Source: Acidobacteriota bacterium
GTDB lineage: Bacteria > Acidobacteriota > Thermoanaerobaculia > Gp7-AA8 > JAHWKK01
Assembly: GCA_019347945.1 (NCBI GenBank)
Contig: JAHWKK010000022.1
Span: forward strand, 1-64,000
Direction of reading: 5' to 3'
DNA length: 64,000 bases
Part shown: piece by piece, positions 7,774 through 62,735 of the stretch
Layout: every line of letters begins with the position of its first letter
Position numbering within the stretch: the first letter of the stretch is position 1
Position numbers and translations under genes: made by a program
The notes under the pieces: generated by a model
Database searches by the model: none
What the model was told of the DNA's origin: nothing
What the model saw: only the letters and a program-made list of their open reading frames with translations

Positions 7774-8003
7774 AAGCAGGGGGTCAGGGATCAGGGATCA
7801 GGGGTCAGCGCATATCCGGCACGGCCGGCTCGGCCAATCCAGTACGTAGGTTCGATTTCCGGGACAGGCGCGTGGTCCAACGTCGTGCCCGACCGCGACG
7901 GCGTCATTGCCCGCGTTGCGCGTGGAGAAACAGGCCCACGTAAAAGACGCTCCTAGGTTGTCATCCCGGGCGTGCGCTGATCCCTGATCCCTGATCCCTC
8001 TGA
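7774..8003. repeat. Repeat-bounded cassette A (GGGATCA heptamers)
   Basis: Between sufB and the symporter, the left side (7784-7811) carries about four heptamers of the type GGGATCA, ending in CAGCGC. The right side (7974-8003) carries the reverse complement (GCGCTGATCCC, then TGATCCC units). The two arms match over about 26 bases with one or two mismatches and enclose about 160 bases with no evident gene. The left arm starts right after the sufB stop codon (TAG then AAGCAGG). The interior contains GTCATCCCGGGCG next to the right arm, reminiscent of the GTCATCCTGAGC box in cassette B. Confidence 0.85.
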
Positions 8004-8017
8004 TAAAGTCTGCCCGC

Positions 8018-9424
8018 GTGAGCACGAGTGCAACGATCTTCGCGACGCTGGTGGCGTATCAGCTCGCGCTCATCGCGATCGGACTCTGGGCGAGCCGGCG
8101 GACGCACGACGAAGGGGATTTCTTCCTTGGTGGACGACAGCTCGGGGGGTGGGTCGCTGCGCTGAGCGCGTCGGCGAGCTCGTCATCCGCCTGGACTCTG
8201 CTGGGTGTGAGCGGCGCGGCGTACGCCTGGGGATTGTCGGCGATCTGGCTTTTTCCTGCGACGGTCGGGGGATTTCTGCTCAACTGGTTCGTCATCGCGC
8301 CCCGTCTGATGAAAGCGAGCCGGGCTGATGGCAGCCTCACTCTGACGCAATTTGTGGCCGGATCGGGCAGCTGGAGCCGGAGGATCCGTCTCCTCAGCTC
8401 GTTCGTGATCGTTTTCTCGTTCCTCTTCTACATCGCGGCCCAGTTCCAGGCTGCCGGTCTGGCGTTCGCGGCGAGCTTCGGGCTATCCGCGCACATCAGC
8501 ATCGCGATCGGCGTCGCGGTCGTCGTTGCATACACTCTCCTCGGTGGGTTCTGGGCGGTGAGTGTCACGGATAGTCTCCAGGGTCTGCTCATGGTGTCGA
8601 CTGCCGTGATCCTTCCGATTGCGGCGTTGATCGCGGTGGGAGGTCCGGGGGCGCTGGCGGAATCGTTCGCGGAAGGCGGCGGCGTATTCGGTCCGCGCGC
8701 CGGAATCGTCGCGCTCGGCTTCGTCATGGGAACGCTCGGAATCGGTCTCGGCTATCCGGGTCAGCCGCATGTGGTCAACCGTTTCATGGCGCTCCGGGAC
8801 GAAGCCAGCCTTCGCGGCGGGAGAGCGATCTCGATTACCTGGGCGGTACTGATCTACGCCGGCATGCTGGTCACGGGATGGTGTGGAAGGATCCTGCTCG
8901 AGGCTGGTCCGGATGGAGAGGAGATCCTCTTCACCGTTGCAGCCGCGGTACTTCCCGCGATTCTCGCCGGAATCATGACGGCAGCGGTGCTCTCGGCGAT
9001 CATGTCGACGGCCGACAGCCAGCTTCTGGTGGCCTCCTCTTCGATCATCATCGACATTCGCCGGGAAAGGCCCGCCGATGGCGCCCGAGGAACTGCGAGC
9101 TCGCGGTCGGTCGTCCTGGCCGTCAGTGTCGTCGCCATGCTGGTGGCGATGTTCGCTCCGGCAACGATTTTCAGCCGGGTGCTTTTCGCGTGGCACGCGA
9201 TCGGGTCCGCCTTCGGGCCGATTCTGATTCTGAAGCTGTTCGGACGGAGGATCGAGGGCGCCGTGGCGTTCGCGTCGATGGCGATCGGATTCGGACTGAC
9301 CGTGATCTTCTACCTCCTTCCGAACACTCCTGGTGACTGGCTGGAGCGGCTGGTTCCGCTCGCCGCCGCAATGCTCGTCGGCCTCGCCGGCAGCGGTCGC
9401 GGCAACCTTGAAAATAGTCATTGA
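8018..9424 (+). CDS. Sodium:solute symporter, PutP-like
   Basis: A 468-residue SSS-family transporter with about 12-13 hydrophobic helices. The N-terminal third closely follows the proline symporter pattern: F-F-L-G-G-R-Q-L-G-G-W-V-A-A-L-S-A-S-A-S-S-S-S-A-type Na+-site helix, then Y-A-W-G-L-S-A-I-W. A later segment with Y-P-G-Q-P-H-V-V-N-R-F-M corresponds to the conserved helix after the fifth or sixth membrane span. It probably imports an amino acid such as proline with Na+, although the substrate is an inference. The start is the GTG at 8018, 14 bases after the right arm of cassette A, so its promoter must lie in or near that cassette. No metabolic neighbour reveals the substrate. Confidence 0.88.
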   Translation: MSTSATIFATLVAYQLALIAIGLWASRRTHDEGDFFLGGRQLGGWVAALSASASSSSAWTLLGVSGAAYAWGLSAIWLFPATVGGFLLNWFVIAPRLMKASRADGSLTLTQFVAGSGSWSRRIRLLSSFVIVFSFLFYIAAQFQAAGLAFAASFGLSAHISIAIGVAVVVAYTLLGGFWAVSVTDSLQGLLMVSTAVILPIAALIAVGGPGALAESFAEGGGVFGPRAGIVALGFVMGTLGIGLGYPGQPHVVNRFMALRDEASLRGGRAISITWAVLIYAGMLVTGWCGRILLEAGPDGEEILFTVAAAVLPAILAGIMTAAVLSAIMSTADSQLLVASSSIIIDIRRERPADGARGTASSRSVVLAVSVVAMLVAMFAPATIFSRVLFAWHAIGSAFGPILILKLFGRRIEGAVAFASMAIGFGLTVIFYLLPNTPGDWLERLVPLAAAMLVGLAGSGRGNLENSH

Positions 9425-9526
9425 TTATGGTTGAAATCTGCCGCATATTATTGCCGCAGTCAGGGCGTCTCCGGCGTCCGGCCTCGACCACCGGCGACCG
9501 GGGTCCCGTTCGAAAGGATCTAACGC

Positions 9527-9925
9527 ATGTTGCTGGTGAAGACGAAACTCGGTGTGAGCTCCATTCATGGCATCGGACTCTTTGCAGATCAGTTCATCCC
9601 GAAAAACACGGTGATCTGGAGGTACGACCCGGCCGTCGACCTCAAGCTGACCCCAGGCCAGATCGAATCTCTGGCCGAATCCTGCCGGGAGCAGATCCGA
9701 AAGTACACTTATCGCGAGTTTCACTCCGATATGTATGTACTTTGCGGTGACGACGCGCGGTTTTTCAATCACGCGCCCGCGATCGCGAACTGCATCGACG
9801 TTCAGAACGGGTCACTCGAAGGGGACGTGACCCTCGCGCTTCGGGATATCGAGGAGGGTGAAGAGCTCACCTGCGATTACGCGATGTTCGACATGGACCT
9901 GATCGAGGGGCGATACAGGATCTGA
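9527..9925 (+). CDS. Small SET-domain protein
   Basis: A 132-residue protein made almost entirely of a SET methyltransferase domain. It has H-G-I-G-L-F-A near the N-terminus (SAM-binding side), F-F-N-H-A with N-C downstream (the pseudoknot N-H-x-x-x-N-C region) and the terminal E-E-L-T-C-D-Y-A containing the catalytic tyrosine. Bacterial SET proteins of this length occur scattered in genomes and are thought to methylate protein lysines, but substrates are mostly unknown. The ATG at 9527 follows AAAGGATC, an acceptable ribosome site. The gene is alone: a symporter lies upstream and cassette B starts right after its TGA. No companion gene suggests the target protein. Confidence 0.85.
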   Translation: MLLVKTKLGVSSIHGIGLFADQFIPKNTVIWRYDPAVDLKLTPGQIESLAESCREQIRKYTYREFHSDMYVLCGDDARFFNHAPAIANCIDVQNGSLEGDVTLALRDIEEGEELTCDYAMFDMDLIEGRYRI

Positions 9926-10523
9926 GGGCGGGTTGGAGGTTGGAGGTTGGAGGTACACGACTCGCGAGATCAAACACTCGTCATCCTGAGCAAGTACACC
10001 GGGGCCAAAAGGCCTCGTGGGATCGGAGATGAACCCCGGAAATGTGACCCTGGCGCGGAGCGCTGGTTCCGTGAGGCCGGGCACGGGCGCGGGCACGGGC
10101 ACGGGAAAGACCTCGCGAACGGATGTTTCATTAGGCGCAAGTGACCGGTGCCTTGCGCCGGTGAAACGGAAATGACACCCGTGAGTGCAGAAACAACCGC
10201 ACTCGCGTACTCAAACCGACGTCATCCTGAGCGGGCGGTCGGGCGGGCAGGCGAAGGACCTCGCAGGTTGGGACATCAGCCCAAGCGAGGCGCTGCAAGT
10301 GGGTCGAAATCCAACAATTCGTGGTCGTTTCATCCTGAGCCGCCGAAGGACGTCGAAGGATCTGGGGGAGGGTCCGTGAGTCAACGTGCCCGCGCCTGAA
10401 GCTTTGATTCATGATCCCCGCCCAGATTCTTCGCCCGTGCTGCGCCGGGCTCAGAATGACGTGGGTTAGTATCCCGAGCCCCGAGCCCCAAACCTCCAAC
10501 TTCAAACCTCCAACCTCCAACCT
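9926..10523. repeat. Repeat-bounded cassette B (GGTTGGA heptamers)
   Basis: This fills the 600 bases between the convergent SET-domain and enolase genes. The left array (9931-9954) is three GGTTGGA units plus GGT. The right array (10490-10523) is the reverse complement (ACCTCCA type) and begins eight bases past the enolase stop. Inside are several GTCATCCTGAGC-like boxes (about 9979, 10221 and 10330, and one inverted near 10450), a palindrome around GACCGGTGCCTTGCGCCGGT (10143-10162), a short GGGCAC tandem (about 10078-10103) and the 90-bp module also found in cassettes E and G. No convincing coding sequence is present. Confidence 0.88.
10210..10298 (+). repeat. Dispersed 90-bp module, copy 1
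   Basis: This block runs from ACTCAAACCGACGTCATCC through GGTTGGGACATCAGCCCAAG to GCGCTGCAA. It recurs inverted at 52915-53005 and directly at 62570-62660 with about 85-90 percent identity by eye. It contains the C-G-G-G-C-G-G-T-C-G-G-G-C-G-G-G-C-A tract shared by all three copies. It is always inside a heptamer-bounded cassette. Confidence 0.85.
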
Positions 10524-10528
10524 GTTTT

Positions 10529-11824
<1,296 letters not shown>

Positions 11825-11830
11825 CTAACT

Positions 11831-12026
11831 GAAGAGTGAAGGGTGAAGAGTGAAGAGTGAAAGAGAAGAGTGAAGAGTGAAGGGTGAAGAGTGAAGGGGT
11901 GGAAAAAGGCGATGCCTGCCTCCTCTCATCCTTTTTCTTTTCACACTTCGGTCTTACTTCTTAACTGGAAAAGGATCAACCTTGGTTGAGCCGTTTTCAC
12001 TCTTCACTCTTCACCCTTCACTCTTC
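11831..12026. repeat. Repeat-bounded cassette C (GAAGAGT heptamers)
   Basis: It lies between the divergent enolase and MATE genes. The left array (11831-11897) has about nine GAAGAGT/GAAGGGT heptamers interrupted by an AAGA insertion. The right array (11994-12026) holds the reverse complement (TTCACTC/TTCACCC units). The enclosed 95 bases are AT-richer than the surroundings and contain AACCTTGGTT and runs of T, so promoter elements for either gene could sit here. Unlike the other cassettes, both arrays face start codons, not stop codons. Confidence 0.85.
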
Positions 12027-12046
12027 TCCCGTAGAATGCGCGGCTC

Positions 12047-13423
12047 ATGTCGACCGAGATCCGATCCGAGGCGCGGCGTCTGATGAAGCTTGCACTTCCG
12101 CTTGCTGCGGCGCAGGCGGGATCACAGCTGATGGGTCTGGTGGATGTCGCCGTGCTCGGCCGCTACGGCGCGGTCGAGCTCGCGGCATCCGGACTCGGAA
12201 ACGCGATCTTCTTTTCGCTGTCGGTGATCGGACTCGGCCTGATCATGGGGATCGATCCGATGATCGCTCAGGCGGTCGGGGCCGGAAAACCCGATCGCGC
12301 GCGGATGATCGGATGGCAGGGGGCATGGCTCTCGATTCCGATCACGATCGTCCTGATGCTGCTGATGATGGCGGGAGCCGCGCTGCTTCCGCGGATCGGT
12401 ATCGAGGACGAACTGATCGGCCCGTCTCGTACGTATCTGCTCCTGCGATCTCTGAGTCTTTTTCCCTTCCTGGCCTATTACGTCGTCCGGGCGTGGCTGC
12501 AGGCAGTCGACATCACCCGGCCGCTGGTGACGGCCGTCGTGGTGGCGAACGTGGTGAACCTCGTGTCGGACATTCTGCTGATATTCGGGGGTGCCGGGCT
12601 TCCTGCCTGGACGGGTCCGTTGCGATCGATTCCCGAGATGGGCATCGCCGGAGCGGGTCTGACGACGGTCGTCAGCGCGCTGGTCCAGCTGGCGATCGTC
12701 GTCCGGGGGGCGAGGGTATCCGTCGAGCCGGAGGGTGCGAGGAGATTGAGGCGAGATGAGATCGCGACGGCTATGAAAGTCGGCGTTCCGGTCTCGCTGC
12801 AGATGACCGCCGAGGTTGGAGTGTTTGCGTTCGTCGGCATTCTGGCAGCCCGGCTGGGGACGATCGACCTCGCGACTCACCAGGTCGTCATCCAGCTGGC
12901 GGCCTTCACCTACACGGTCGCATTCGGGATCGCGATGGCCGCCTCCGTGCGGGTCGGCGCGGCGATCGGTGCGGCAGATCATGCGCTCACGAGGCTCGCC
13001 GGCCGGCTTTCATTCATCCTCGGCGGCGGAGTGATGGGAGTGATGGCGGCTTTTTTCGCGACGACTCCGGGACCGCTGGCGCGGCTCATGACCAACCAGC
13101 CGGCGATTCTCGTTCCGGCAACGACTCTTCTCGTCGTGGCCGCGTGGTTCCAGCTCTCCGACGGGATCCAGGCGGTCGGGGCGGGCGCGCTTCGAGGCGC
13201 GGGCGACACCAAGTTCACGTTCTACGCGAATGTCGTGGGGCACTGGATGATCGGAATGCCGATCGCGTTCTGGCTCGGGTTTCGTCAGGGGATGGGGATC
13301 CACGGGCTGTGGTGGGGACTCTGCGCCGGACTGACCGTGGTTGCGGTGGTGCTGTTCGTACGGTTCGAGTGGCTGGCGAGGGTACGGATTGATCCGATCG
13401 AGGGTTTGCGGAGGGAGCGCTGA
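12047..13423 (+). CDS. MATE-family multidrug/cation antiporter
   Basis: A 458-residue transporter with about 12 hydrophobic helices arranged as two similar halves, each a MatE domain. The first begins M-K-L-A-L-P-L-A-A-A-Q-A-G-S-Q-L-M-G-L-V-D, and the second begins about residue 240 with M-K-V-G-V-P-V-S-L-Q-M-T-A-E. Members export drugs or metabolites in exchange for Na+ or H+. The conserved G-A-G-D-T-K-F-T near the end of the protein corresponds to the R-G-A-G-D-T region of the family. The ATG at 12047 follows a TAGAATGCG leader right after cassette C. The substrate cannot be deduced, and no regulator gene is adjacent. Confidence 0.93.
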   Translation: MSTEIRSEARRLMKLALPLAAAQAGSQLMGLVDVAVLGRYGAVELAASGLGNAIFFSLSVIGLGLIMGIDPMIAQAVGAGKPDRARMIGWQGAWLSIPITIVLMLLMMAGAALLPRIGIEDELIGPSRTYLLLRSLSLFPFLAYYVVRAWLQAVDITRPLVTAVVVANVVNLVSDILLIFGGAGLPAWTGPLRSIPEMGIAGAGLTTVVSALVQLAIVVRGARVSVEPEGARRLRRDEIATAMKVGVPVSLQMTAEVGVFAFVGILAARLGTIDLATHQVVIQLAAFTYTVAFGIAMAASVRVGAAIGAADHALTRLAGRLSFILGGGVMGVMAAFFATTPGPLARLMTNQPAILVPATTLLVVAAWFQLSDGIQAVGAGALRGAGDTKFTFYANVVGHWMIGMPIAFWLGFRQGMGIHGLWWGLCAGLTVVAVVLFVRFEWLARVRIDPIEGLRRER

Positions 13424-13512: not shown

Positions 13513-13517
13513 GTGAA

Positions 13518-19043: not shown

Positions 19044-19286
19044 GTGTCACTCATATGGTTTCTTCTGATCGGATTGGCCGCCGGGTTCCTCGCGAACCTC
19101 GTCATGAAATCGGGCCTCGGGCTCCTCGGCGATCTGATCGTCGGGGTCGTCGGAGCCATTCTCGGAGGATGGCTCTTCGGCCAGCTCGGCATCAGCGCGG
19201 GAGGAGGGTTGTTCGGCGCGCTCGTCACGGCGTTCGTCGGCGCCGTCGTCCTGCTTCTCATCATCCGGGTGATCAAGCGAGCGTAG
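19044..19286 (+). CDS. GlsB/YeaQ/YmgE-family small membrane protein
   Basis: An 80-residue, glycine-rich hydrophobic protein with three membrane helices, matching the YeaQ/YmgE (transglycosylase-associated) family: M-S-L-I-W-F-L-L-I-G-L-A-A-G-F-L-A, then G-D-L-I-V-G-V-V-G-A-I-L-G-G-W-L-F and a C-terminal V-L-L-L-I-I-R-V-I-K-R. Members are stress-associated inner-membrane proteins of unknown mechanism. The GTG start follows AAGGAGGGC eight bases upstream, a strong ribosome site. The TAG stop is followed, without a single spacer base, by the heptamer array of cassette D. It converges on polA. Confidence 0.9.
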   Translation: MSLIWFLLIGLAAGFLANLVMKSGLGLLGDLIVGVVGAILGGWLFGQLGISAGGGLFGALVTAFVGAVVLLLIIRVIKRA

Positions 19287-19655
19287 AGGCAGGAATCAGG
19301 ATCCAGGAGGCAGGATCCAGGAGGCAGGATCCAGGAGACAGGATCCAGGAGACAGGATCCAAGAGGCAGGAACCAGGATCCAGGAGCCTCAGTGTTCCGT
19401 GGCTTCCGACCCGGATGTTTGCTCGCTCCGTAATGAGCTTGGATCCGAACGCCAGTAGTGATTCCGGGTGACCGCCGGAATCCTGCTTCGTCGGTCGATT
19501 GTGAGAGTGTCTGGATCCGCGCATCCAAGAACCAAATCGCCGACTCCTCGATCCACTTGCGGCTGGTGTTTGCTGGCTCCTGATTCATGATTCCTGATTC
19601 CTGGCTCCTGGCTCCTGGCTCCTGATTCCTGGCTCCTGGCTCCTGGATCCTGATT
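19287..19655. repeat. Repeat-bounded cassette D (CAGGANN heptamers)
   Basis: It fills the whole 369 bases between the stop codons of the convergent YeaQ-like and polA genes. The left array (19287-19387) holds fourteen heptamers of consensus CAGGANN (CAGGATC alternating with CAGGAGG or CAGGAGA). The right array (about 19575-19655) holds eleven or twelve reverse-complement units (GCTCCTG, ATTCCTG). Both arrays abut their neighbouring stop codons with no spacer. The central ~190 bases contain no clear gene or hairpin and differ from the interiors of B, E and G. Confidence 0.9.
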
Positions 19656-51043: not shown

Positions 51044-51820
51044 ATGCCGGACATTCACCAGACCGCCTGGGTCGATTCGGGAGCGACGCTCGCAGACGAC
51101 GTCGTCGTAGGGGCATTTTCCGTCATCGGAAGCGGAGTCGCCATCGGCGAAGGAACGGAGATCGGACCGCATACCCGCATCCAGGGAAACACGACTATCG
51201 GAAAGCGCAACCGGATCTACGGCCAGAGCTCGATCGGTACGGACCCGCAGGATCTGAAGTTCGGCGGTGCGCCGACTCGACTCGAGATCGGCGATGAAAA
51301 CGTCATCCGCGAGTTCGTCACGATCAACCGAGGGACCGAGCACGGGGGCGGCCTCACCCGAGTCGGCAACTCGAACTTTCTGATGGCTTACGCTCACATC
51401 GCTCACGACTGTTTCATCGGGAATCATGTGATCTTCGCGAACGCGGGAACGCTCGCTGGGCATGTGACGGTCGAGGACCATGCCCTCGTCGGCGCATTCA
51501 CGATGATTCATCAGTTCTGCAGGATCGGAAAGTATGCGTTTACCGGCGGTGGAACGATCGCAACCCAGGATGTCCTTCCATTCGTCAAGACGGTCGGAGC
51601 CCGGCCCCCCAAAACTTACGGCGTGAACACGATCGGACTCGAGAGAAAGGGTTTCTCGAAGGACGTCATCGCGGCGATCCGACGCGCCTACAACATCATT
51701 CGAACGAGCGCGACCCTTCGCGAAGGAGTCGACAAAATTCATCAGGAGCTTCCGGACGTCGAGGAGGCTCGCTATCTGGCAGATTTCGCGACTGACGCGA
51801 AGCGAGGATTCATACGATGA
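51044..51820 (+). CDS. lpxA: UDP-N-acetylglucosamine acyltransferase LpxA
   Basis: A 258-residue LpxA, first enzyme of lipid A synthesis. The beta-helix repeats (I-H-Q-T-A-W-V-D-S-G-A and later) and the catalytic histidine in A-Y-A-H-I-A-H-D-C are visible, followed by G-N-H-V-I-F-A-N. The C-terminal helical region after residue 190 is normal. The start is M-P-D-I-H-Q-T-A. The following oxidoreductase overlaps the stop (ATGA), as in many lipid A operons, where it may act on the sugar of lipid A. The genes lpxB, lpxC and lpxI are not in the window. Confidence 0.96.
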   Translation: MPDIHQTAWVDSGATLADDVVVGAFSVIGSGVAIGEGTEIGPHTRIQGNTTIGKRNRIYGQSSIGTDPQDLKFGGAPTRLEIGDENVIREFVTINRGTEHGGGLTRVGNSNFLMAYAHIAHDCFIGNHVIFANAGTLAGHVTVEDHALVGAFTMIHQFCRIGKYAFTGGGTIATQDVLPFVKTVGARPPKTYGVNTIGLERKGFSKDVIAAIRRAYNIIRTSATLREGVDKIHQELPDVEEARYLADFATDAKRGFIR

Positions 51821-52758
51821 CCGAAAGGGTGCGGACCGGTGTGGTCGGAGTCGGCTACCTCGGAGGGCTTCATACACGCGTTCTCACGGAGATACCGGAG
51901 GTCGAGCTCGTCGGGTTCGTCGAACCGGATGATCGGCGCGCCGGGGAGATCGGGGAGAAGTTCGGCCTGCAGCGATTCGATTCGGTTGCGGCGATTGCCC
52001 CCGAGATCGAGGCATGCGTCGTCGCGACTCCGACGGTCGAACATCACCGCGTTTCGGTCGAGCTGCTCGAGGCGGGCGTCGACGTGATGATCGAAAAACC
52101 GATCACCGCAAGCCTCGAGGAGGCGAACGAGCTGATCGGAATCGCCGAATCGAACGGCCGGCTCATTCAGGTCGGTCACGTCGAGCGATACAACCCGGCG
52201 ATCGTTGCCGCCGCACCCGCCGTCAGCGAGCCCCGATACGTCGAAGCGCAGCGGATCGGCGTTTTTTCGGCACGCTCTCTCGACATCGACGTCCTTCTCG
52301 ATCTGATGATCCACGACATCCATCTCGTCTATTCGCTCATCGGCAAGCCGGTCGTCGAGATCAGGGCGATCGGGATCCCGGTTCTGACCGACAGAGTCGA
52401 CATGGCGAACGTCCGGCTCGAAATGGAGGGAGGCGCGGTCGCCAACCTCGTCGCCAGCCGTGTCGCCAACGACAAGATGAGGAAGTTCAGAATCTTCGGC
52501 AAGGATTCCTATGTGTCGGTCGACACGAAGGACCAGGACGCTCGCGGTTACAGGCTCCTGCGCGATGGGGACTCGAAAACGGTCGAGGTTCTCAACCTCG
52601 AGGTCGAGCGGAAGGAGCCGCTCAGGGCAGAGCTGGATGCGTTCATCGACTGCGTGCGCTCGCGCGAGAAGCCGCTCGTCGACGGACGGGATGGGATGGC
52701 CGCCCTCGAGCTCGCGCTCAGAATCGGTGAGGAGATCGAGCGTACGACGCCTGTTTAG
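51817..52758 (+). CDS. Gfo/Idh/MocA-family oxidoreductase, lipid A operon
   Basis: A 313-residue NAD(P)-dependent sugar dehydrogenase. The Rossmann motif is G-V-V-G-V-G-Y-L-G near the N-terminus, followed by E-K-P-I-T-A in the conserved active-site loop and a beta-rich C-terminal half with G-H-V-E-R-Y-N-P-A and D-L-M-I-H-D-I-H. Such genes are often found after lpxA. In some bacteria a related enzyme (GnnA) oxidises UDP-GlcNAc so that an aminotransferase can make the 2,3-diamino sugar of lipid A; no such aminotransferase gene adjoins it, so the substrate is open. The ATG overlaps the lpxA stop (ATGA), and the TAG stop is immediately followed by the heptamer array of cassette E. Confidence 0.88.
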   Translation: MTERVRTGVVGVGYLGGLHTRVLTEIPEVELVGFVEPDDRRAGEIGEKFGLQRFDSVAAIAPEIEACVVATPTVEHHRVSVELLEAGVDVMIEKPITASLEEANELIGIAESNGRLIQVGHVERYNPAIVAAAPAVSEPRYVEAQRIGVFSARSLDIDVLLDLMIHDIHLVYSLIGKPVVEIRAIGIPVLTDRVDMANVRLEMEGGAVANLVASRVANDKMRKFRIFGKDSYVSVDTKDQDARGYRLLRDGDSKTVEVLNLEVERKEPLRAELDAFIDCVRSREKPLVDGRDGMAALELALRIGEEIERTTPV

Positions 52759-53179
52759 AAGCAGGAATCAGGAATCAGGAGTCAGGAATCAGGGATCATG
52801 AATCAACTCTCAGCGATGGCGAAACCCTGATTCACGAGCCTGCCGCCAGATCCTTCGCCGTCCTCCGGCGGCTCCTAATGAAACGGCCACGAAATTTTTT
52901 GGACTTTGACCCTTTTGCGGCGCTTCGCTTGGGCTGATGTCCCAACCTGCAAGGTCCCTCGCTTGCCCACCCGACCGCCCGCTCGGGACGACGTCGGTTT
53001 GAGTATGGGGTGCGGAGTTTTGCGGGATCCGGTTTTCATTCCCGCTTCACCGGCGCAACGCGCCGGTCAATTGCTCAGGATGACGAGTGATCCATCTCCC
53101 ACGTTTTCACATTCTAAAATTTCTGGTTCCTGCTTCCTGGTTCCTGCCCCCTGATCCCTGATCCCTAATCCCTGCTTCT
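52759..53179. repeat. Repeat-bounded cassette E (CAGGAAT / TGATCCC heptamers)
   Basis: It lies between the convergent oxidoreductase and YbdG-like genes. The left array (52759-52806) starts at the base after the TAG stop: AAGCAGG, then CAGGAAT-type heptamers. The right array (about 53122-53179) holds reverse-complement units (TGGTTCC, TGATCCC) and ends in CCTGCTTCT. The interior is homologous, in reverse orientation, to the interior of cassette B over several hundred bases, including the 90-bp module (52915-53005), the GCGCCGG palindrome near 53050-53068 and an inverted GTCATCCTGAGC box near 53071-53083. Confidence 0.9.
52915..53005 (-). repeat. Dispersed 90-bp module, copy 2 (inverted)
   Basis: This is the reverse complement of the block at 10210-10298: ATACTCAAACCGACGTCGTC, then the G-rich tract, GGTTGGGACATCAGCCCAAG and GCGCCGCAA on the minus strand. 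Flanking sequence on both sides also matches cassette B, so the shared element in these two cassettes is longer than in cassette G. Confidence 0.85.
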
Positions 53180-54405
53180 CTCATCCTCTCGAAATCGTGA
53201 CCCGTCGGATTCTGGAAAACGCGGAGGCCGAATTCGGGCAGGATCGCGAGAAGGTGATCGAAGACGTCCGCCTGGATCGCTTCGTACTCCGCCCACGCGG
53301 TGGTCTTCGTGAAGACGTAGATCTCGAGAGGCAGACCATCGGAGCCCGGCTCGAGATGCCGGACCAGAAAGGTCATCGCGGAATGAACGTCGGGACGCTG
53401 CTGAAGATACTTGACGACATACGCGCGGAAAGTGCCGACATTCGTGAGGCGCCGCGCATTGGCGACGAGATCGGACTCGGTCAGGACCTTTTTATTGTAC
53501 TCCTCGAGCTCCGATCGCTTTCCTGCGATGTAGTCGCGCAGGAGGACGAAGCGTTCGAATCGCTCGATCTCGGCCTGATCGAGGAACCGGATCGAGCGCA
53601 TGTCGATGTGGATCGGACGCTTGATCCGCCGGCCGCCCGACTCCTGCATGCCGCGCCAGTTGCGGAACGACTCGTCGATCAGCTTGTAAGTCGGGATCGT
53701 CGTGATCGTCTTGTCCCAGTTCTGAACCTTGACCGTGTGGAGCGCGATGTCGATGACGTCGCCATCCGCGCCGTACTTCGGCATCTCGATCCAGTCGCCG
53801 ATCCGGACCATGTCGTTCGATGCGATCTGGATGCTGGCGACCAGTGAAAGGATCGTGTCGCGGAAGATCAGAAGAACGACCGCCGTCATCGCTCCGATTC
53901 CGGTGAGCAGATAGAGCGGCGAGCGATCGAGCACCAGCGCAATCGCGAACACGACTGCCATGATGAAGAGAAAGATCTTGGCGATCTGAAGGTAACCTTT
54001 GATTGGCCGCCCTCGTGACACCGGATACGACGAGTAGACCTCGTTGGTGGCGGTCAGGATCGCGCTGATCAGCATGACCACGACGAAGACCATCGCCGCC
54101 AGCATGACGTTGAGCAGACGGTCGATGGCCTCCGGGTCGATGCCCGGAAGCAACGGCAGTCCGAAGTGCAGAACGACCAGCGGCATCAGAGCTGCCGCAC
54201 GCCGCAGGACCTTCGGCTGGAGGAGCACGTCGTCCCAGCTGAATCGAGAGTTCCGGACCATGCTGGTCACGGCGCGGGTCAGGTACCTCCGGACGACGAA
54301 GTAACTGAGAGCCGCGGCGAGCAGCAGACTCGAGGTTCCGAGGAGCGTCGCCAGCGCAGGATGAGCCTCCAGCCACGCTGCGATGCGAGTCAGCGACTCA
54401 TTCAT
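53107..54405 (-). CDS. YbdG-like mechanosensitive channel (MscS family)
   Basis: A 432-residue MscS-superfamily protein with about five N-terminal helices, then the pore-like helix (L-T-G-I-G-A-M-T-A-V-V-L-L-I-F-R-D-T-I-L-S-L-V) and the beta domain V-R-I-G-D-W-I-E-M-P. The sequence pattern and the ending F-Q-N-P-T-G-H-D fit the YbdG group, osmotic-shock channels of the inner membrane. After E-R-M the reading frame runs into cassette E: the last ~25 residues (R-E-A-G-I-R-D-Q-G onward) are encoded by the heptamer array. The start at 54405 overlaps the metX stop by eight bases. Confidence 0.9.
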   Translation of the reverse strand: MNESLTRIAAWLEAHPALATLLGTSSLLLAAALSYFVVRRYLTRAVTSMVRNSRFSWDDVLLQPKVLRRAAALMPLVVLHFGLPLLPGIDPEAIDRLLNVMLAAMVFVVVMLISAILTATNEVYSSYPVSRGRPIKGYLQIAKIFLFIMAVVFAIALVLDRSPLYLLTGIGAMTAVVLLIFRDTILSLVASIQIASNDMVRIGDWIEMPKYGADGDVIDIALHTVKVQNWDKTITTIPTYKLIDESFRNWRGMQESGGRRIKRPIHIDMRSIRFLDQAEIERFERFVLLRDYIAGKRSELEEYNKKVLTESDLVANARRLTNVGTFRAYVVKYLQQRPDVHSAMTFLVRHLEPGSDGLPLEIYVFTKTTAWAEYEAIQADVFDHLLAILPEFGLRVFQNPTGHDFERMREAGIRDQGSGGRNQEAGTRNFRM

Positions 54406-56444: not shown

Positions 56445-57155
56445 TTGACCTGGTATCAGGAGTGGTTCGGCGAGGACTATCTCGAGCTTTATGCTCATCG
56501 AGGCGAAGACGAAGCACGAATGCATGCCCGCTTCGTCCATGAGCGATTCGACCGGATCGATGGCCTGCTGCTCGATCTCGCCTGCGGTTCGGGACGCCAC
56601 CAGCGGGAGCTCGAAGCACTTGGTTACGACGTCCTCGGTCTCGACCTTTCCCCCTATCTTCTCGCCCGGGCCCGGATGTCGGACAGCGGTGCGAGCCTCG
56701 TTCGCGCAGATATGAGAATGCTGCCGCTGGGGATTGGCACGGTCGCGGGTCTGGTCAATTTCTTCACGAGCTTCGGCTACTTCGAGGACGATGAGGACAA
56801 CGAAGACGTCGTCCGTGAGATGGCCCGGGTTCTTCGTCCGGGCGCCCCCTTTCTTTTCGACTACATGAACGTTCCGCTCGAGCGCGAGCGACTCGTTTCC
56901 CACGAGGAGCAGATCGTCGGGGACCGAGAGGTTCGAATCGAGCGGTGGTTCGATACCGGCTCGCGTACGTTCAACAAGAGGATCTTCATCGGGAACCGGT
57001 CATTTCTCGAGCGTGTACGCGCCTACGAGCCGGAGGAGATCCGGAAGCTCTTCGAGGATGCCGGTCTGGTCATCGAGGCGGTCTGCGGGGATTTCGAGAG
57101 TTGCGACTGGACGCCGGAGAGTCCGCGGCTCGTTCTGATCGGAAGGCGTGGATGA
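56445..57155 (+). CDS. Class I SAM-dependent methyltransferase
   Basis: A 236-residue Rossmann-fold methyltransferase: motif I L-L-D-L-A-C-G-S-G-R-H, motif II at V-L-G-L-D-L-S, and an acidic motif ending F-D-Y-M-N-V. The substrate is unknown; the neighbouring bacillithiol genes suggest a small-molecule thiol or sugar but prove nothing. The TTG start at 56445 lies 10 bases after the GTPase stop. The stop overlaps bshC by four bases (ATGA), so it is part of the same transcript as the bacillithiol genes. Confidence 0.88.
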   Translation: MTWYQEWFGEDYLELYAHRGEDEARMHARFVHERFDRIDGLLLDLACGSGRHQRELEALGYDVLGLDLSPYLLARARMSDSGASLVRADMRMLPLGIGTVAGLVNFFTSFGYFEDDEDNEDVVREMARVLRPGAPFLFDYMNVPLERERLVSHEEQIVGDREVRIERWFDTGSRTFNKRIFIGNRSFLERVRAYEPEEIRKLFEDAGLVIEAVCGDFESCDWTPESPRLVLIGRRG

Positions 57156-58669
57156 GCAAGAAAAAGTCCGCTGTCGAGACGCTGGAGCTGCCTCTGGAGG
57201 ACTATCCGGGCTTCAATCCGCTCGCTCTGGACCTCGTGCGAGGGGAATCGAAGGCGCGGAAGTTCTTCGACTCGGCCGACGAGGACTTCCGCCGCCCTTC
57301 GCCAGATCTGGCGGCGGCGCTGGTTCGCTACAACCACCAGGTCGGCAACGATGCCGCGACGCTGGTGAGTCGATGGAGGGCCGGCGCGGTCACGATCGTC
57401 GCGGGACAGCAGGCCGGCTTTGCAGGCGGTCCTCTCTATACGCTCGCGAAGATCGCATCCCTGCTCGACCTTCAACGATCCCTTTCCGAGAAGGGAATCG
57501 ACGCCATTCCCGTCTTCTGGATCGCCACCGAGGACCATGATTTCGACGAGGTCGCCCGGGCGGAGCTCAGGATCGGCCGCGAGACGGTGCTGGTGAAGTC
57601 GGCCGAGCACCCCGGCGAACGCTTCTGCGTCGGGCCTCTCCCGATTCCGCGGGATCTCGTCGAGGCATTTCTCGAGGCAACCGGAGCGAAGAGGCCGCAC
57701 TGGCTCGCGGAGGGGATCACCTTCGGGGAATCGTTCGCACGGCTGATCGCCTCGACCGTTCCCGGCAAACTGATTCTGGTCGACTCGCTGCTCCCCGATC
57801 TCCGCAGCGAAGCGGGAGGCTTTCTCAGCCGTATCCAGGAAGAGCGGCAGGCGATCCTCGCGAGGATGGACGAAACCTCGCGGGCACTCGCAGCGGCAGG
57901 TTATCGCCCTCAGGTCGAAGCGAGATCGGGCGACGAAGAGATACCGCTCCTCTACGAGCTCGACGAGAGGATGGTCCGCCGGCCGTTTCCCGAGGAAGCC
58001 GACGTGTCGCCCGAGCGAATCTCGACGGCGGCGCTCGCACGTCCTCTTCTTCAGGACGCCGCCTTCACACCGTGGGCTTTCATCGGAGGGCCGGCGGAGG
58101 TCGCGTATTACGCGCAGCTTCGAGGGGTTCACGAGTATCTCGGAATCCACAGGCCGCGAGTGATGCTGCGAGGCCATGCGTTCGTCGCGCCGGCGAAGGA
58201 GCTGCGCGCGGCGTTCGAGTACGGGCTCGAGCCCTACGAGATGTTCTTCGACCCCGACACGACCATCATGGAGCGGGAGCAGCCGCTGAGGGCGACCCTC
58301 GAGGAGGAGCTCGCTGCGCTCAGGGAATCGCTTTCCTCGAGGTTCGGCGCGCTCGCCGAAGCGATCGGAAACGTCGACTCCACCATGAAGCGGCCATTCG
58401 AAAGATCGCGGAAGAGCATCGAGTACCATCTCGATCAGGCCCGGCGCCGCGGAACCCGTGCGATCGCGCGGCGCCACGCGGAGCGGTTCGCGGCTTTCGA
58501 ACGTCTTCACGACACCCTGATGCCGCGAGGCGTTCCACAGGATCGGATCATGAGCTGGCTCAGCTATCAGTGGTATTCACACACCGACCTCCTCTCTGCC
58601 TTCGAGGGGCGCCTCGCTCCGCAGAAATCGACCTTCAAAGTGATTCCAATCGGAGGAGATGCGTCATGA
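57152..58669 (+). CDS. bshC: Bacillithiol biosynthesis cysteine-adding enzyme BshC
   Basis: A 505-residue BshC, thought to add cysteine to GlcN-malate to finish bacillithiol. It shows the family features: V-A-G-Q-Q-A-G-F-A-G-G-P-L-Y-T near residue 88, W-I-A-T-E-D-H-D-F-D-E-V, I-G-G-P-A-E-V-A-Y-Y-A-Q-L and R-V-M-L-R-G-H. The length is close to that of Bacillus BshC (about 540). It overlaps the methyltransferase (ATGA) and bshB1 (ATGA). Bacillithiol is a low-molecular-weight thiol in Firmicutes and some other groups, so this set predicts the thiol used by this organism. Confidence 0.95.
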   Translation: MSKKKSAVETLELPLEDYPGFNPLALDLVRGESKARKFFDSADEDFRRPSPDLAAALVRYNHQVGNDAATLVSRWRAGAVTIVAGQQAGFAGGPLYTLAKIASLLDLQRSLSEKGIDAIPVFWIATEDHDFDEVARAELRIGRETVLVKSAEHPGERFCVGPLPIPRDLVEAFLEATGAKRPHWLAEGITFGESFARLIASTVPGKLILVDSLLPDLRSEAGGFLSRIQEERQAILARMDETSRALAAAGYRPQVEARSGDEEIPLLYELDERMVRRPFPEEADVSPERISTAALARPLLQDAAFTPWAFIGGPAEVAYYAQLRGVHEYLGIHRPRVMLRGHAFVAPAKELRAAFEYGLEPYEMFFDPDTTIMEREQPLRATLEEELAALRESLSSRFGALAEAIGNVDSTMKRPFERSRKSIEYHLDQARRRGTRAIARRHAERFAAFERLHDTLMPRGVPQDRIMSWLSYQWYSHTDLLSAFEGRLAPQKSTFKVIPIGGDAS

Positions 58670-59397
58670 GCGAGCTCGCGAAAGTCGACCTTCTCGTTTT
58701 CGGCGCGCACGCCGACGACATCGAGCTCGCCTGCGGGGGAACCATCCTGAAAACGGTGCGATCGGGCGGCCGGGCCGGCATCGTCGACCTGACGCGGGGC
58801 GAGATGGGGACACGAGGCGACGTCGAGACCCGACTGAAGGAGAGCCTCGCTTCCGCCGAAGTCCTCGGAGCCACGTTCCGCGAGCGCGTCGACTTCGGGG
58901 ACGGCGGGATGCGCACCGGCCCCGAGGAAGAGGACCGGCTGATCGAGATCATCCGCGCGTGCAGACCTCGAATCATCATCGGGCCATGGCCGGATGAACG
59001 CCATCCGGATCACGTGCGGGCGGGACGGCTGATCACCGACGCCTGGTTCTACGCCGGGCTGGAAAAGCGGATGCCGCATCTTCCGTCCCACCGGGCGGAC
59101 GCCGTCGTTTACTACCAGCAGAACTACATTCAGCATCCGAGCTTCGTCGTCGACGTCACCGACGTCTGGGAGGATCGGATGAAGGCGGTCCGCTGCTATG
59201 AGTCGCAGTTCTGGAAGGCGGACTCGAAAGAGCCGGAGACGTTCATCTCGAGGAAACCGTTCATCGAGATGATCGAGGCGCGGGCGCGGCACTTCGGTGC
59301 TCTGATCGGGCGCGACAAGGGGGAGGGATTCCTCACGCGGCAACCGCCGATGATCGAAGACATCGCCGCGGCCTACGCGGGAAGGGAAATCCATTGA
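58666..59397 (+). CDS. bshB1: Bacillithiol biosynthesis deacetylase BshB1
   Basis: A 243-residue LmbE/PIG-L zinc deacetylase that removes acetyl from GlcNAc-malate. The zinc motif is H15-A-D-D-I-E, and the distal metal-binding motif is H-P-D-H. The catalytic aspartate is in D17/D18. The family sequence D-L-T-R-G-E-M-G-T-R-G is also clear. The ATG overlaps the bshC stop (ATGA), and the stop overlaps the bshA TTG (TTGA). Confidence 0.95.
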   Translation: MSELAKVDLLVFGAHADDIELACGGTILKTVRSGGRAGIVDLTRGEMGTRGDVETRLKESLASAEVLGATFRERVDFGDGGMRTGPEEEDRLIEIIRACRPRIIIGPWPDERHPDHVRAGRLITDAWFYAGLEKRMPHLPSHRADAVVYYQQNYIQHPSFVVDVTDVWEDRMKAVRCYESQFWKADSKEPETFISRKPFIEMIEARARHFGALIGRDKGEGFLTRQPPMIEDIAAAYAGREIH

Positions 59398-60506
59398 AAG
59401 TCGGAATCACCTGCTATCCCACCTACGGGGGTTCGGGTGTCGTCGCCACCGAGCTCGGCATCGCCCTCGGGGACCTCGGGCACGAGGTCCACTTCATCAG
59501 CTATGCGTGGCCGTCGCGCCTGAGCGTGCTTCACGAACATGTGCGATTTCACGAGGTCACGGTGACGCCGTATCCGCTGTTCGACAGCTACCCGCCGTAT
59601 ACGCTGGCGCTTGCCACGAAAATGGCGGAGGTCGCCCGCTACGAGGGACTCGACGTTCTCCATGTTCACTACGCGATTCCTCACGCGATCAGCGGCTTTC
59701 TCGCCAAGCAGATTCTCGGAAACGACGATCTCAAGCTGGTGACGACGCTGCACGGGACCGACATCACGCTGGTCGGACGAGACGCGAGCTACCTCCCGAT
59801 CACTGAATTCGGGATCAACGCCTCCGACGGAGTCACGGCCGTGTCGAACTGGCTCCGCGATGAGACGAACGCGTATTTCGATATCAGGAAGGAGATCGCG
59901 GTGATCCCGAACTTCGTGGACCCGAAGCGTTTTCAGAATGGAGGCGACTGCGCCGTCCGCAGCTGGATTACCGAGGGGGAGCGGCTGATCGGCCACGCTT
60001 CGAACTTCCGTCCCGTCAAACGCGTCCTCGACATCCTCGAGGCTTTCGAGATCATCCTGAAGCGGGTTCCTTCGCGACTGCTCATGATCGGGGATGGTCC
60101 CGACCGCTCCCGTGCTGAATCATTTGCACGCGAGCATGGCCTTGGCGACCACGTGATCTTTCTCGGGAATGTCCCCAACATCGAAGAGCTCATCGGGGGG
60201 TGCGACGTTTTTCTCCTTCCCTCGGAGACCGAGTCGTTCGGCATGGCGGCTCTCGAGGCGCTGGCCTCGGAGGTTCCGGTCGTCGCGACCCGGACCGGAG
60301 GGCTCCCCGAGGTGATCATCGAGGGAGAGGTCGGCTATCTGGTGGAGGTCGGCGATACGAAGGAGCTCGCGGAGCGGGCGATCTCGATTCTCGCCGACCC
60401 GGAGAAACGGAAAAAGATGGGCCGGGCAGCGCGCGATCACGCGATCACGACTTTCCACGTCGACCGAATCGTCCCGAAGTACCTCGACTTCTACGAGAAC
60501 GTGTAG
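59394..60506 (+). CDS. bshA: N-acetylglucosaminyl-malate synthase BshA
   Basis: A 370-residue GT4 glycosyltransferase joining UDP-GlcNAc and malate, the first step of bacillithiol synthesis. Family features are I-T-C-Y-P-T-Y-G-G-S-G-V-V-A-T-E-L, T-L-H-G-T-D-I-T, H-A-S-N-F-R-P-V-K and the nucleotide-sugar site E-S-F-G-M-A-A-L-E-A-L-A. A TTG start overlaps the bshB1 stop (TTGA). The TAG stop is followed at once by AAGCAGG and the heptamers of cassette F, so no further gene of the operon follows. All three bsh genes of the core pathway are present, in the order C-B1-A. Confidence 0.95.
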   Translation: MKVGITCYPTYGGSGVVATELGIALGDLGHEVHFISYAWPSRLSVLHEHVRFHEVTVTPYPLFDSYPPYTLALATKMAEVARYEGLDVLHVHYAIPHAISGFLAKQILGNDDLKLVTTLHGTDITLVGRDASYLPITEFGINASDGVTAVSNWLRDETNAYFDIRKEIAVIPNFVDPKRFQNGGDCAVRSWITEGERLIGHASNFRPVKRVLDILEAFEIILKRVPSRLLMIGDGPDRSRAESFAREHGLGDHVIFLGNVPNIEELIGGCDVFLLPSETESFGMAALEALASEVPVVATRTGGLPEVIIEGEVGYLVEVGDTKELAERAISILADPEKRKKMGRAARDHAITTFHVDRIVPKYLDFYENV

Positions 60507-60664
60507 AAGCAGGTTGGAGGTTGGAGGTTGGAGGTCGAAAGGGCTCGGACGGTCGCGAGTGACGACGTCGTGAGGTTCTGTTTCGTCTCTCAGTCCACGA
60601 CGTCCACATCGTCCACGACGTCCACATCGTCCACAACCTCAAACCTCCAACCTCCAACCTTCCA
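60507..60664. repeat. Repeat-bounded cassette F (TTGGAGG heptamers, plus a 9-bp tandem)
   Basis: The left array (60507-60534) begins after the bshA stop as AAGCAGG and three TTGGAGG units. The right array (60635-60664) is ACCTCAA/ACCTCCA reverse-complement units. Just before the right array is a second tandem repeat, five 9-base units CGTCCACGA/CGTCCACAT (about 60592-60635). The left-right unit is the same family as cassette B (GGTTGGA). The interior is only about 100 bases and lacks the module seen in B, E and G. Confidence 0.87.
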
Positions 60665-60784
60665 GCATGTTCACGATCTCCTGACCGCCGGGACCGGCAA
60701 ACATTGCAACCTTCGCTGCCGCCATGCGTCTCTATTGGTAGCACCAACGTCCGACGGCGAGAAATCCGAAAGGGGAGCAATGTG

Positions 60785-61171
60785 ATGATCCGGGAAGCGA
60801 GTTCCAGTGCAGCCGAGCGAATCGAGGGGGGAAGCGTGGACGTGGTGATCGGAATGGCGGCAGTGAAACCGGAGATCGAGGTCGCCAGGGAAATCCTCTC
60901 CTTTCTGCCGGAAGAGATCATCCTCTCCGAAGAGTCGGATCGAGGAGTGGTCCGCTACCATGTTTCCGATTCGATGGACGGATGGAAGCTGAGGGAGATC
61001 GTATTCAGCAGGAAGAGCCTTCTCAGGCTGATCGACGACCCGAACCGGGACGTCAAGATCTCCTACATGCGTCGCGAGATCGAGCGCGCGGCGCCCTCGC
61101 GCACGCAGTGGCTGTTCCCCAGACTTCCGATGTCGGAGATGCTCGGCGCTCAGCTTCCCGCTTCGAGGTAA
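60785..61171 (+). CDS. Hypothetical protein of 128 residues
   Basis: A 128-residue soluble protein with no family I recognise. It has an alternating alpha/beta pattern (V-D-V-V-I-G-M-A-A-V-K-P-E-I-E-V-A-R-E-I-L, E-E-I-I-L-S-E-E-S) and a basic C-terminal third (R-E-I-E-R-A-A-P-S-R). The ATG at 60785, preceded by GGGGAGCAATGTG, is used; a GTG three bases earlier is possible. Its last 22 bases overlap, tail to tail, the amidohydrolase gene on the other strand. No neighbouring operon partner. Confidence 0.62.
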   Translation: MIREASSSAAERIEGGSVDVVIGMAAVKPEIEVAREILSFLPEEIILSEESDRGVVRYHVSDSMDGWKLREIVFSRKSLLRLIDDPNRDVKISYMRREIERAAPSRTQWLFPRLPMSEMLGAQLPASR

Positions 61172-62424
61172 TCGAGGACGAGGTTCGTCATTGCCTTTGC
61201 GCCGACGGTCAGCGCGCTCTCATCGATGTCGAACTCCGCGGTGTGCAGGTTCGCCGTGATGCCTCGTTCCGGATTGCCGACGCCCAGCACGTAATAGAAC
61301 CCCGGAATTGCCTCGGCAAAGTGCGCAAAGTCCTCGGCCACCATCTGCTGGCCGGCCATGACGACGTTCTCGCTGCCGAGTGTCGAACGGAGCGAGGCGA
61401 TTGCCATCTCCGAGAGCTCCGGATCGTTCACCGTTGGGGGATTCGAAGAGTCCGCGAACGACACCGAGGCCGATGCTCCGACGGCTTTCGCAGTGTCCTC
61501 CACGATCTGATGGATCGAGTCGCGGGCGAGGTCGCGCACCGCCGGTGACAGCGTCCGGAGGGTTCCCTCCATTTCCACGAGCGGCGGAATGACGTTGAAG
61601 CGCGTTCCGCCCCGAATGATCCCGATCGAGACGACGACCGGCTCGGTGGGATCGACGCGGCGGGCATCGATCGTCTGGAGCGCCGTGACGATCTGCGCGG
61701 ACGCGACGATCGGGTCGACGCCGAGATGCGGCTGCGCGCCGTGGCTCTGCTTTCCTTCGACGCGGATCGAGAAGGTGTCCGACGAGGCGAAGAATGGTCC
61801 CGGCCGAACGCCGACGGTTCCGGCTTTGAGCGCCGGCCACGCGTGGAGCGCGAAGATCGCTTCCGGCTCATACTTTTCGAAGATCCCCTCCTCGAGCATC
61901 AGCGGCGCCCCTCCCTTCTCGCCCGGCGGCGGCCCCTCCTCGGCGGGCTGGAAGATCATGATCACCCGTCCCGGGAGCGTCTCCCGGTTCTTCCAGAGGA
62001 CCTCCGCCACGGTCAGCCCGATCGCGATGTGCGAGTCGTGTCCGCACGCGTGCTTCACGCCCGGATTACGCGACTTGTACGGAACGTCGATCGTCTCCTC
62101 GATCGGAAGAGCATCGATGTCGGCGCGGACCGCGACGGTTGGTCCCGGCAGTCCGCCTCGAATGTCTCCGACGATTCCGGTGCGCGCGATGCCGGTCTCG
62201 ATCGGGATGCCGATGTGTCGGAGCTGATCTGCGATCCGCCTGGATGTTTCGACCTCGCGGTTGGAGAGCTCGGGGTACTGATGAAATGTGCGGCGGAGCG
62301 CGATGCATTGCTGCGCGAGCGCTTCAATCTGGGCATCGATTTCGGGACGGGGCGCGGCGTTGAGCTCAACCGCGGCGAGCCCGGCAACCATCAGAACGAG
62401 TGGGACGACGATCACGTTTCGCAT
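61150..62424 (-). CDS. Secreted M20-type amidohydrolase
   Basis: A 424-residue M20D-type metallohydrolase of the IAA-amino-acid/hippurate hydrolase group. An N-terminal signal peptide (V-I-V-V-P-L-V-L-M-V-A-G ending in L-N-A-A) indicates export. Conserved zinc-site elements include H-A-C-G-H-D-S-H, P-A-E-E-G, the H-A-W-P-A segment and the terminal N-L-H-T-A-E-F-D. They predict cleavage of an N-acyl amino acid or similar amide in the periplasm. The ATG at 62424 is used; a TTG two codons upstream is less likely. Cassette G lies directly upstream of its start. Confidence 0.9.
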   Translation of the reverse strand: MRNVIVVPLVLMVAGLAAVELNAAPRPEIDAQIEALAQQCIALRRTFHQYPELSNREVETSRRIADQLRHIGIPIETGIARTGIVGDIRGGLPGPTVAVRADIDALPIEETIDVPYKSRNPGVKHACGHDSHIAIGLTVAEVLWKNRETLPGRVIMIFQPAEEGPPPGEKGGAPLMLEEGIFEKYEPEAIFALHAWPALKAGTVGVRPGPFFASSDTFSIRVEGKQSHGAQPHLGVDPIVASAQIVTALQTIDARRVDPTEPVVVSIGIIRGGTRFNVIPPLVEMEGTLRTLSPAVRDLARDSIHQIVEDTAKAVGASASVSFADSSNPPTVNDPELSEMAIASLRSTLGSENVVMAGQQMVAEDFAHFAEAIPGFYYVLGVGNPERGITANLHTAEFDIDESALTVGAKAMTNLVLDYLEAGS

Positions 62425-62440
62425 GGACAAAGCCTATAAG

Positions 62441-62735
62441 AAAAGAGTGAAGAGTGAAGGGTGAAGGGTGAAAAAAAGAGTGAAGAGTGAAGAGTGAAGA
62501 GTGAAAAAGAGAGACTCACCCCGCCCAGATTTCTTCGCCCGCGCTTCGCCGGGCCCGGACCGCTCGCGCATACTCACCTGACGTCATCCCGAGCGGGCGG
62601 TCGGGCGGGCAAGCGAGGGACCTCTCAGGTTGGGACATCAGGCCAAGCGAAGCGCTGGAAGGCGTCGCGTGCAAAGAACGAAGCTCGTGAGTCGACGGTG
62701 CCGGTGCCTCTCTTTCACTCTTCACTCTTCTTTTC
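62441..62735. repeat. Repeat-bounded cassette G (GAAGAGT heptamers)
   Basis: The left array (62441-62508) is a run of GAAGAGT/GAAGGGT units with A-rich interruptions; the right array (62710-62735) is the reverse complement (TTCACTC). The interior carries the third copy of the 90-bp module (62570-62660) and a second shared block, CCGCCCAGATTTCTTCGCCC (62521-62540), which also occurs near 10420 in cassette B. The left array lies just upstream of the amidohydrolase start. The right array overlaps the final codons of the DUF418 gene. Confidence 0.88.
62570..62660 (+). repeat. Dispersed 90-bp module, copy 3
   Basis: A third copy, in the same orientation as at 10210-10298: ATACTCACCTGACGTCATCC through GGTTGGGACATCAGGCCAAG to GCGCTGGAA. 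It is shorter on its flanks than copies 1 and 2, so the 90-bp module is the unit common to all. Confidence 0.83.

Follow-up and report, generated by a model that had tools for sequence, protein, structure and literature searches.

The closest described counterpart of the repeats considered here comes from Xanthomonas, where Rehm et al. 2015 (PMC4692102) reported 70 and 75 convergent pairs of GGGAATC repeats in two genomes. According to that account, the mean distance of the repeats is 28 nt to the 5' neighbouring gene and 160 nt to the gene that follows; the repeats overlap stop codons, keep their position between species while changing in length and have no known function. The same source describes GGGGA(T/C)T repeats with few inverted pairs in Nostoc, and cites the tandem heptamers known as short tandemly repeated repetitive (STRR) sequences in filamentous cyanobacteria, three of them in Calothrix. 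Many short tandem heptamers, mostly intergenic and of no known function, also occur in Geobacter metallireducens (PMC2700814) and in the Beggiatoaceae (TAACTGA; PMC4679880), though as described most of the Beggiatoaceae repeats are direct and precede start codons, only one case being inverted, and those of G. metallireducens form blocks of four or five units that also occur within genes; a facing arrangement flush with genes is not reported in the portions of these two accounts considered here. The window analysed here is the first 64,000 nucleotides of contig JAHWKK010000022.1 (contig C22) from the genome of an Acidobacteriota bacterium (assembly GCA_019347945.1; 3.72 Mb in 49 contigs, 99.65% complete), in which seven intergenic cassettes are bounded by tandem heptamers on the left and by reverse-complement heptamers on the right. 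These cassettes are members of a widespread class of intergenic elements composed of G/purine-rich heptamer arrays, often in facing pairs.

The arrangement is of the same kind as the Xanthomonas GGGAATC pairs, with which it shares the period of 7, the intergenic location, the convergent pairing and the position nearer to the 5' neighbouring gene, and the suggestion in an earlier note on this DNA that such paired arrays were not a described element is therefore not upheld. Unlike Xanthomonas, for which one G-tract word per genome is described, several words coexist here, including GAAGAGT, which has no G-tracts; only the GGGATCA family resembles the G-tract form GGGANTN, which can fold into G-quadruplexes. 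The new features are the coexistence of several words in one genome, some of them lacking G-tracts, the matching of the arms and the turnover of the word in both arms, together with empty sites, dispersed interiors and a spread over phyla; arm matching, both-arm turnover, empty sites and dispersed interiors do not figure in the account of Rehm et al. 2015 (PMC4692102) as far as it was available.

All seven facing pairs were recovered in the window where the earlier note had placed them, by Tandem Repeats Finder and, independently, by a period scan (words are quoted on the G-rich/purine-rich strand throughout). The window contains 16 period-7 segments, compared to a mean of 0.05 in 20 first-order-Markov samples, while other periods yielded 0–2 segments, except for period 14, a multiple of 7. 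One of the 16 segments is the C-rich contig end, where about 180 bases (window 1-180) are of low complexity and possibly represent a contig-end assembly artefact. Genome-wide counts were made on 2.04 of the 3.72 Mb (~55%), with array thresholds chosen by the analyst and genes called with a purpose-built dicodon model trained on the same genome. In this sample there were 205 period-7 arrays, compared to 2–35 for each other tested period, and 179 of the 205 were intergenic. The commonest words were GAAGAGT (49 arrays), GGGATCA (30), GGTTGGA (27) and CCGGTTG (15), in addition to the CAGGANN family. Because a single word recurs at dozens of loci, the heptamer families are genome-wide and not site-specific, as had been proposed, and the arrays do not surround most long intergenic gaps, as they occur in only 94 of 406 intergenic regions (IGRs) of at least 200 bp. 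An origin of the arrays in assembly artefact is unlikely, because the same structures are present in isolate genomes, such as that of Neorhodopirellula pilleata.

The arrays have an inward polarity that does not depend on the direction of the genes. All IGRs with arrays on both strands had them pointing inward (46 compared to 0 reversed), with the G/purine-rich array on the left and the C/pyrimidine-rich array on the right in 46/46, which bears out the purine-rich left arm noted in the window. Strict pairing holds for only part of the set, since 68 of the 114 array-bearing IGRs carried arrays on one strand only at the threshold used; in these one-strand IGRs the arrays pointed away from the nearer gene (59:9). 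For 163 of the 179 intergenic arrays (163:16) the end behind the G-strand was the one nearer to a gene, with the gene-side end at a median of 18 nt from the gene and the other end at 257 nt. This orientation equals that of a Chi-type site read from a break between the arms. Chi sites act with polarity, and each species has one Chi sequence. The arrays could accordingly be pictured as fences that stop RecBCD/AddAB arriving from interior breaks and so shield genes, with recombination at the protected 3' ends expanding and spreading the arrays, but several unrelated words coexist in this genome, unlike the single Chi sequence, and this explanation is considered extremely improbable.

Arrays lie at both ends of genes, 105 at 3' ends and 74 at 5' ends, with median gaps of 5 nt and 50 nt, respectively. 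Convergent IGRs were enriched (40/215 occupied; odds ratio [OR] = 3.3), as would be predicted if the hairpin were selected as an RNA-level device, namely a bidirectional terminator, an mRNA-stabilising stem or a regulator in an untranslated region (UTR), and Xanthomonas transcripts are described as starting or stopping more often at the repeats than at control sites (PMC4692102). Termination, one of the functions raised in the earlier note, does not account for the arrays in general: divergent IGRs lack any gene 3' end, yet they were occupied as often as co-directional IGRs (17/250 compared to 57/873, OR = 1.04), and 5' ends are used nearly as frequently as 3' ends; an intrinsic terminator confined to gene 3' ends was rejected on the 74 of 179 arrays that sit at 5' ends. 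A device of this type, to which further evidence from relatives applies below, is regarded as very unlikely. A scan of the window against Rfam for known RNA elements yielded four tRNAs only.

In convergent IGRs with arrays, the residual outer flanks total 8 nt, compared to 62 nt in native IGRs (p = 1e-4), and TAG stop codons are over-used in genes that abut arrays (31/83 compared to 223/1732 overall, p = 5e-9), often in the form TAGAAGCAGG; the array itself encodes some of the stop codons and C-terminal tails. Upstream of genes, the arrays flanking the enolase and MATE genes of the window end just before a -10-like TAGAAT near the start codon (11810-11830 and 12026-12060). TANAAT-type -10 boxes also lie 6–10 nt before the enolase start in many relatives (eno loci L050-L059) and suggest that enolase transcripts may be leaderless. 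Separately, a run of similar-sized predicted genes at G000:C4:29628-42997 each carries a facing pair of GGCTCGR or GAGAGGC with a short loop close to the predicted frame start, where start codons may be mispredicted.

The same geometry was found far beyond this genome. A 29-nt GAAGAGT array had counterparts, among the matches listed, in the Bacteroidota, Planctomycetota, Campylobacterota, Chloroflexota, Acidobacteriota, Clostridia, Proteobacteria and others, and across 80 GAAGAGT loci of many phyla, again among the matches listed, IGRs had the inward order in 18:0 cases and the gene-side end was the nearer one in 94:31. The arms of a pair in Neorhodopirellula can consist of unrelated words that still point inward, and for this reason complementarity of the arms is not required; plain selection for a hairpin was rejected as failing to cover such unmatched arms. 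GAAGAGT x3 arrays were also present in 36 stretches of predicted viral contigs, compared to 12 for the reversed word (L316-L363), which lends weak support to a directionality of the word.

Within a pair, the arms are matched site by site. In the first sample analysed (864 kb), 20 of 26 pairs had arms of the same family, compared to 4.5 by shuffling, and at its outer, gene-proximal end an arm matched its partner better than same-family arms elsewhere (21.4 compared to 18.6 of 24, p = 7e-6); the match to the partner was weaker at the inner end (p = 0.010; outer over inner, p = 0.0095). Identical variant units occur in the same order in both arms at 11830/11996 in the window and at C3:121507. Other arms are of unlike words, with GAAGAGT on the left and GGGATCA on the right at C1:299600/299750, and the right arms at C9:67292 and C11:75752 change from CAGGANN to GAAGAGT on the inner side. 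Based on these comparisons, it is inferred that pairs would start with matched arms and then change or grow on the inner side. The identical variant units and the match of arms site by site could also be explained by slippage in a stem-loop, where a short palindrome on a purine-rich nascent strand grows by 7-nt steps, while fold-back template switching (quasi-palindrome correction) keeps the arms alike. Short loops in several relatives are compatible with this process, and a 7-nt polymerase footprint was proposed earlier for heptamer repeats (cited in PMC4679880). But loops here span 100–1000 bp, the partner match is best at the outer end and not at the loop, which fold-back copying would predict, the words are common to dozens of loci and differ between genomes, and the unrelated arms of Neorhodopirellula keep their polarity. 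Slippage, also named in the earlier note, would on its own leave the shared words, the unmatched arms and the strict polarity unexplained, and we consider it improbable.

No genome of the same family was among the relatives found, and 18 others share the order. For words, four genomes of the same order with 3–20 arrays each were sampled. The word sets of this genome and of these four relatives were disjoint (probability of the same word, 0), compared to a probability of 0.11 that two arrays of this genome have the same word. Words shared within a genome and disjoint between genomes are what copying between loci would produce, and not what local slippage would. Among 119 genomes of the phylum, GGTTGGA was present in this one only; the reversed-word control carries no information for this word, because its reverse is a rotation of itself.

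Orthologous IGRs of relatives include compact and empty sites. At one site, G005 holds a 187-bp cassette (GAAGGCA arms around a GTCATCCTGAGC palindrome) whose array provides a stop codon, where the interval in the congener G008 is -17 bp and the biotin-carrier-like gene overlaps its neighbour; a second site measures 251 bp in G005 compared to 36 bp in G008. At the single comparable junction (~78% identity), no target-site duplication was evident. The rhodanese-enolase IGR is ~36 bp without an array in G008, and contains GAGTCCT-type pairs in G013 and G010, the left arm only in G001 (of the same genus as G010) and a GAGTGAC/GAAGAGT pair in G002. Between the congeners G001 and G010, three orthologous IGRs retain the facing pair but with a different word in both arms (GTGCTGA/GTACTGA compared to GTCCTGA in two IGRs, and GCGGGTA compared to GGGGTCG in one), and in a fourth IGR one species has a heptamer pair and the other has another inverted repeat. 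This joint change of both arms resembles the covariation of an RNA stem and is the remaining point in favour of an RNA-level device, against which stand the unmatched arms and the orthologous IGRs without an element. In G005, heptamer pairs at G005:C29:332420-332787 and 347700-347950 are nested in a larger inverted repeat with GCGCGTGTGC-type ends; this larger intergenic element is absent from the congener G008.

The cassette interiors are also enriched in repeated DNA, as 33 of 50 interiors >60 bp contained repeats present elsewhere in the sampled genome, compared to 117 of 568 control IGRs. One family of ~250–350 bp, about 80–94% identical and in either orientation, is composed of GTCATCCTGAGC...GAAGGATCT palindromes and has copies at 9955-10490, 52806-53119 and 62506-62713 of the window, at C2:169843-170195 and C5:95304-95807, and at others; this one family is enclosed by arrays of different words. 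Because some cassettes share an interior plus one arm as a unit (C5:45635-45987 and C11:1570-1923, >350 bp, 82%), the sequences indicate that cassettes, or parts of them, have been copied around the genome.

These observations and the empty sites in congeners would fit mobile elements like miniature inverted-repeat transposable elements (MITEs), enterobacterial repetitive intergenic consensus (ERIC) sequences or repetitive extragenic palindromic (REP) sequences, with the arrays as terminal inverted repeats and a transposase acting in trans. The arrays resemble MITE, ERIC and REP sequences, including the bacterial interspersed mosaic elements (BIMEs) that REP sequences form, in being intergenic inverted repeats without their own transposase, and REP-like palindromes occur in some cassettes. 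In contrast to those elements, they have no fixed sequence, the arms being tandem heptamers of changing word. With respect to MITEs, presence and absence between relatives is shared and constant terminal inverted repeats are not, the same interior lying within different words and arm length varying as well; for this reason the arrays do not represent one conventional element with fixed terminal repeats. The idea in the earlier note of a remnant of mobile elements thus gains from the empty sites and from the dispersed repeats in interiors and loses by the different words around the same interior. Also against mobile elements, no clear target-site duplication was seen at the one comparable junction, and no transposase was found among the ten flanking proteins scanned in the window, in line with what had been noted there. 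REP sequences characteristically flank a Y1_Tnp gene of the REP-associated tyrosine transposase (RAYT) type. An origin from a RAYT/REP system was rejected, as the genome has eight Y1_Tnp genes and no arrays around them. One RAYT-like Y1_Tnp gene (L022, G000:C5:111137-114472) is flanked by the REP-like palindromes GCCCGCTGAAGCGGGC and CCCCCGGCTGAAGCCGGGGG in the usual RAYT layout, and the CCGGTTG cassette at C2:163400 contains similar palindromes. Mobile elements in this sense are a possible but doubtful explanation.

The reading tentatively preferred here is that the pairs are matched-arm inverted-repeat insertions at permissive intergenic sites, which change on their inner side and are homogenised by copying between loci. 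A pair would be born by inverted duplication, or as a copy of the pair of another locus, at a permissive site, meaning dispensable DNA that separates a stop codon or a promoter from the gene that follows. Thereafter its arrays would grow longer, switch to another word and incorporate other repeats on the inner side, at the 3' end of the G-rich strand, while inter-locus copying, by ectopic conversion or re-insertion, would spread prevalent words through the genome. Most simply, the polarity may reflect extension of the 3' ends on the two sides of a break or gap, a layout like that of two fused telomeres. At the DNA level the elements are most likely neutral or selfish, and effects on nearby transcription may still occur.

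Several points weigh against this reading. The unrelated arms in Neorhodopirellula and the mixed-word pairs in this genome would each need a second event, and growth on the inner side is deduced from arm similarity, with the inner ends of arrays less well defined than the outer ends. Other inverted repeats in array-free IGRs are also G-left (70:30), and because of this lean part of the polarity may be general or may come from sub-threshold arrays. The four relatives give small numbers for words, and the changes between congeners are not polarised with respect to gain or loss or to which word is older. Finally, no enzyme was found, with arrays absent at the eight Y1_Tnp genes and a search of the 99.65% complete genome for PF00078 (RVT_1) without a match, the latter result leading to the rejection of a reverse-transcriptase origin. 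A rather unlikely alternative is a bacteria-wide process of DNA synthesis, not recognised before, that would extend 3' ends at intergenic breaks or gaps by G-rich 7-nt units, leave facing arrays in the geometry of fused telomeres and rewrite the arrays of a genome together to yield a lineage-specific vocabulary of heptamers. The telomerase-like reverse transcriptase DRT10 (PMC12632851) similarly makes tandem-repeat DNA, by copying an RNA template; unlike the arrays here, its main example consists of 9-nt repeats and is protein-primed, and genomic arrays are not described in that account as far as it was available.

Around the seven cassettes of the window, the ten flanking proteins scanned were all ordinary (SufBD, sodium:solute symporter, SET domain, MATE, DNA polymerase I, MscS-like and others). 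Cassette 1 has a left arm of GGGATCA/GGGGTCA units (7780-7808, + strand), 6 nt past the stop codon of a SufBD-domain gene (6304-7773), an interior of 168 bp (7809-7976) and a right arm (7977-7999, - strand; CTGATCC on the + strand), with 18 nt between its end and the GTG of the symporter gene (8018-9424). Cassette 2 is a GGTTGGA pair, with a left arm (9931-9954, +) 5 nt past a SET-domain gene (9527-9925) and a right arm (10491-10523, -; CCAACCT on +) 5 nt before the stop codon of the enolase gene (10529-11815, -); its interior (9955-10490) holds the dispersed ~250–350 bp repeat with GTCATCCTGAGC palindromes and a short CCCGAGC array (10473-10489) adjoining the right arm. Cassette 3 is a GAAGAGT pair between divergent genes, with a left arm of two sub-arrays (11830-11896, +) 14 nt upstream of the enolase start and beside TAGAAT, an interior of 99 bp (11897-11995) and a right arm (11996-12026, -) upstream of the MATE gene (12047 or 12083 to 13423, +). 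The 31 nt of this right arm repeat the outer 31 nt of its partner exactly in reverse complement, variant unit included. Cassette 4 has CAGGANN arms, the left (19290-19385, +) 3 nt past a small predicted gene (19044-19286) and the right (19578-19652, -; CTGGCTC/CTGATTC on +) 3 nt before the stop codon of the DNA polymerase I gene (19656-22274, -), around an interior of 192 bp (19386-19577).

The left arm of cassette 5 (52758-52805, +; CAGGANN) starts on the last base of the TAG stop codon of an oxidoreductase gene (51817-52758), and its interior of 314 bp (52806-53119) includes the dispersed repeat. Its right arm (53120-53173, -; mixed CAGGANN/GGGATCA) lies within the predicted 3' end of an MscS-like gene (53107-54405, -) and codes for the tail of the predicted protein, for which an ortholog check in relatives gave weak partial matches only. 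Cassette 6 is a GGTTGGA pair, with a left arm (60511-60535, +) 4 nt past a glycosyltransferase gene (59394-60506), an interior of 99 bp (60536-60634) and a right arm (60635-60660, -; CCAACCT on +); next to the right arm, the interior holds an 18-bp tandem repeat (GTCCACGACGTCCACATC) at 60593-60634 (to 60637 at most). Cassette 7 is a GAAGAGT pair with a left arm of two sub-arrays (62443-62505, +) upstream of a peptidase M20 gene (61150-62424, -), an interior that contains part of the dispersed repeat (62506-62713) and a short right arm of 2.4 units (62714-62730, -; TTCACTC on +), which overlaps the 3' end of a DUF418 gene (62722-63849, -).

Facing heptamers have so far been treated as a G-quadruplex feature of Xanthomonas, without known function in the account available (PMC4692102). 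Instead, that period, polarity and gene-flush placement recur across many phyla, and that the words are genus-specific but shared within a genome, suggests a general bacterial rule. The presence of several words per genome that seem to be rewritten together as species diverge points to a DNA-copying process, and the parallel change of short arrays at many loci calls for a copying mechanism. For the genomes that carry them, the arrays shape gene ends, to which they contribute stop codons and C-terminal tails, and they mark the places at which intergenic DNA is gained.

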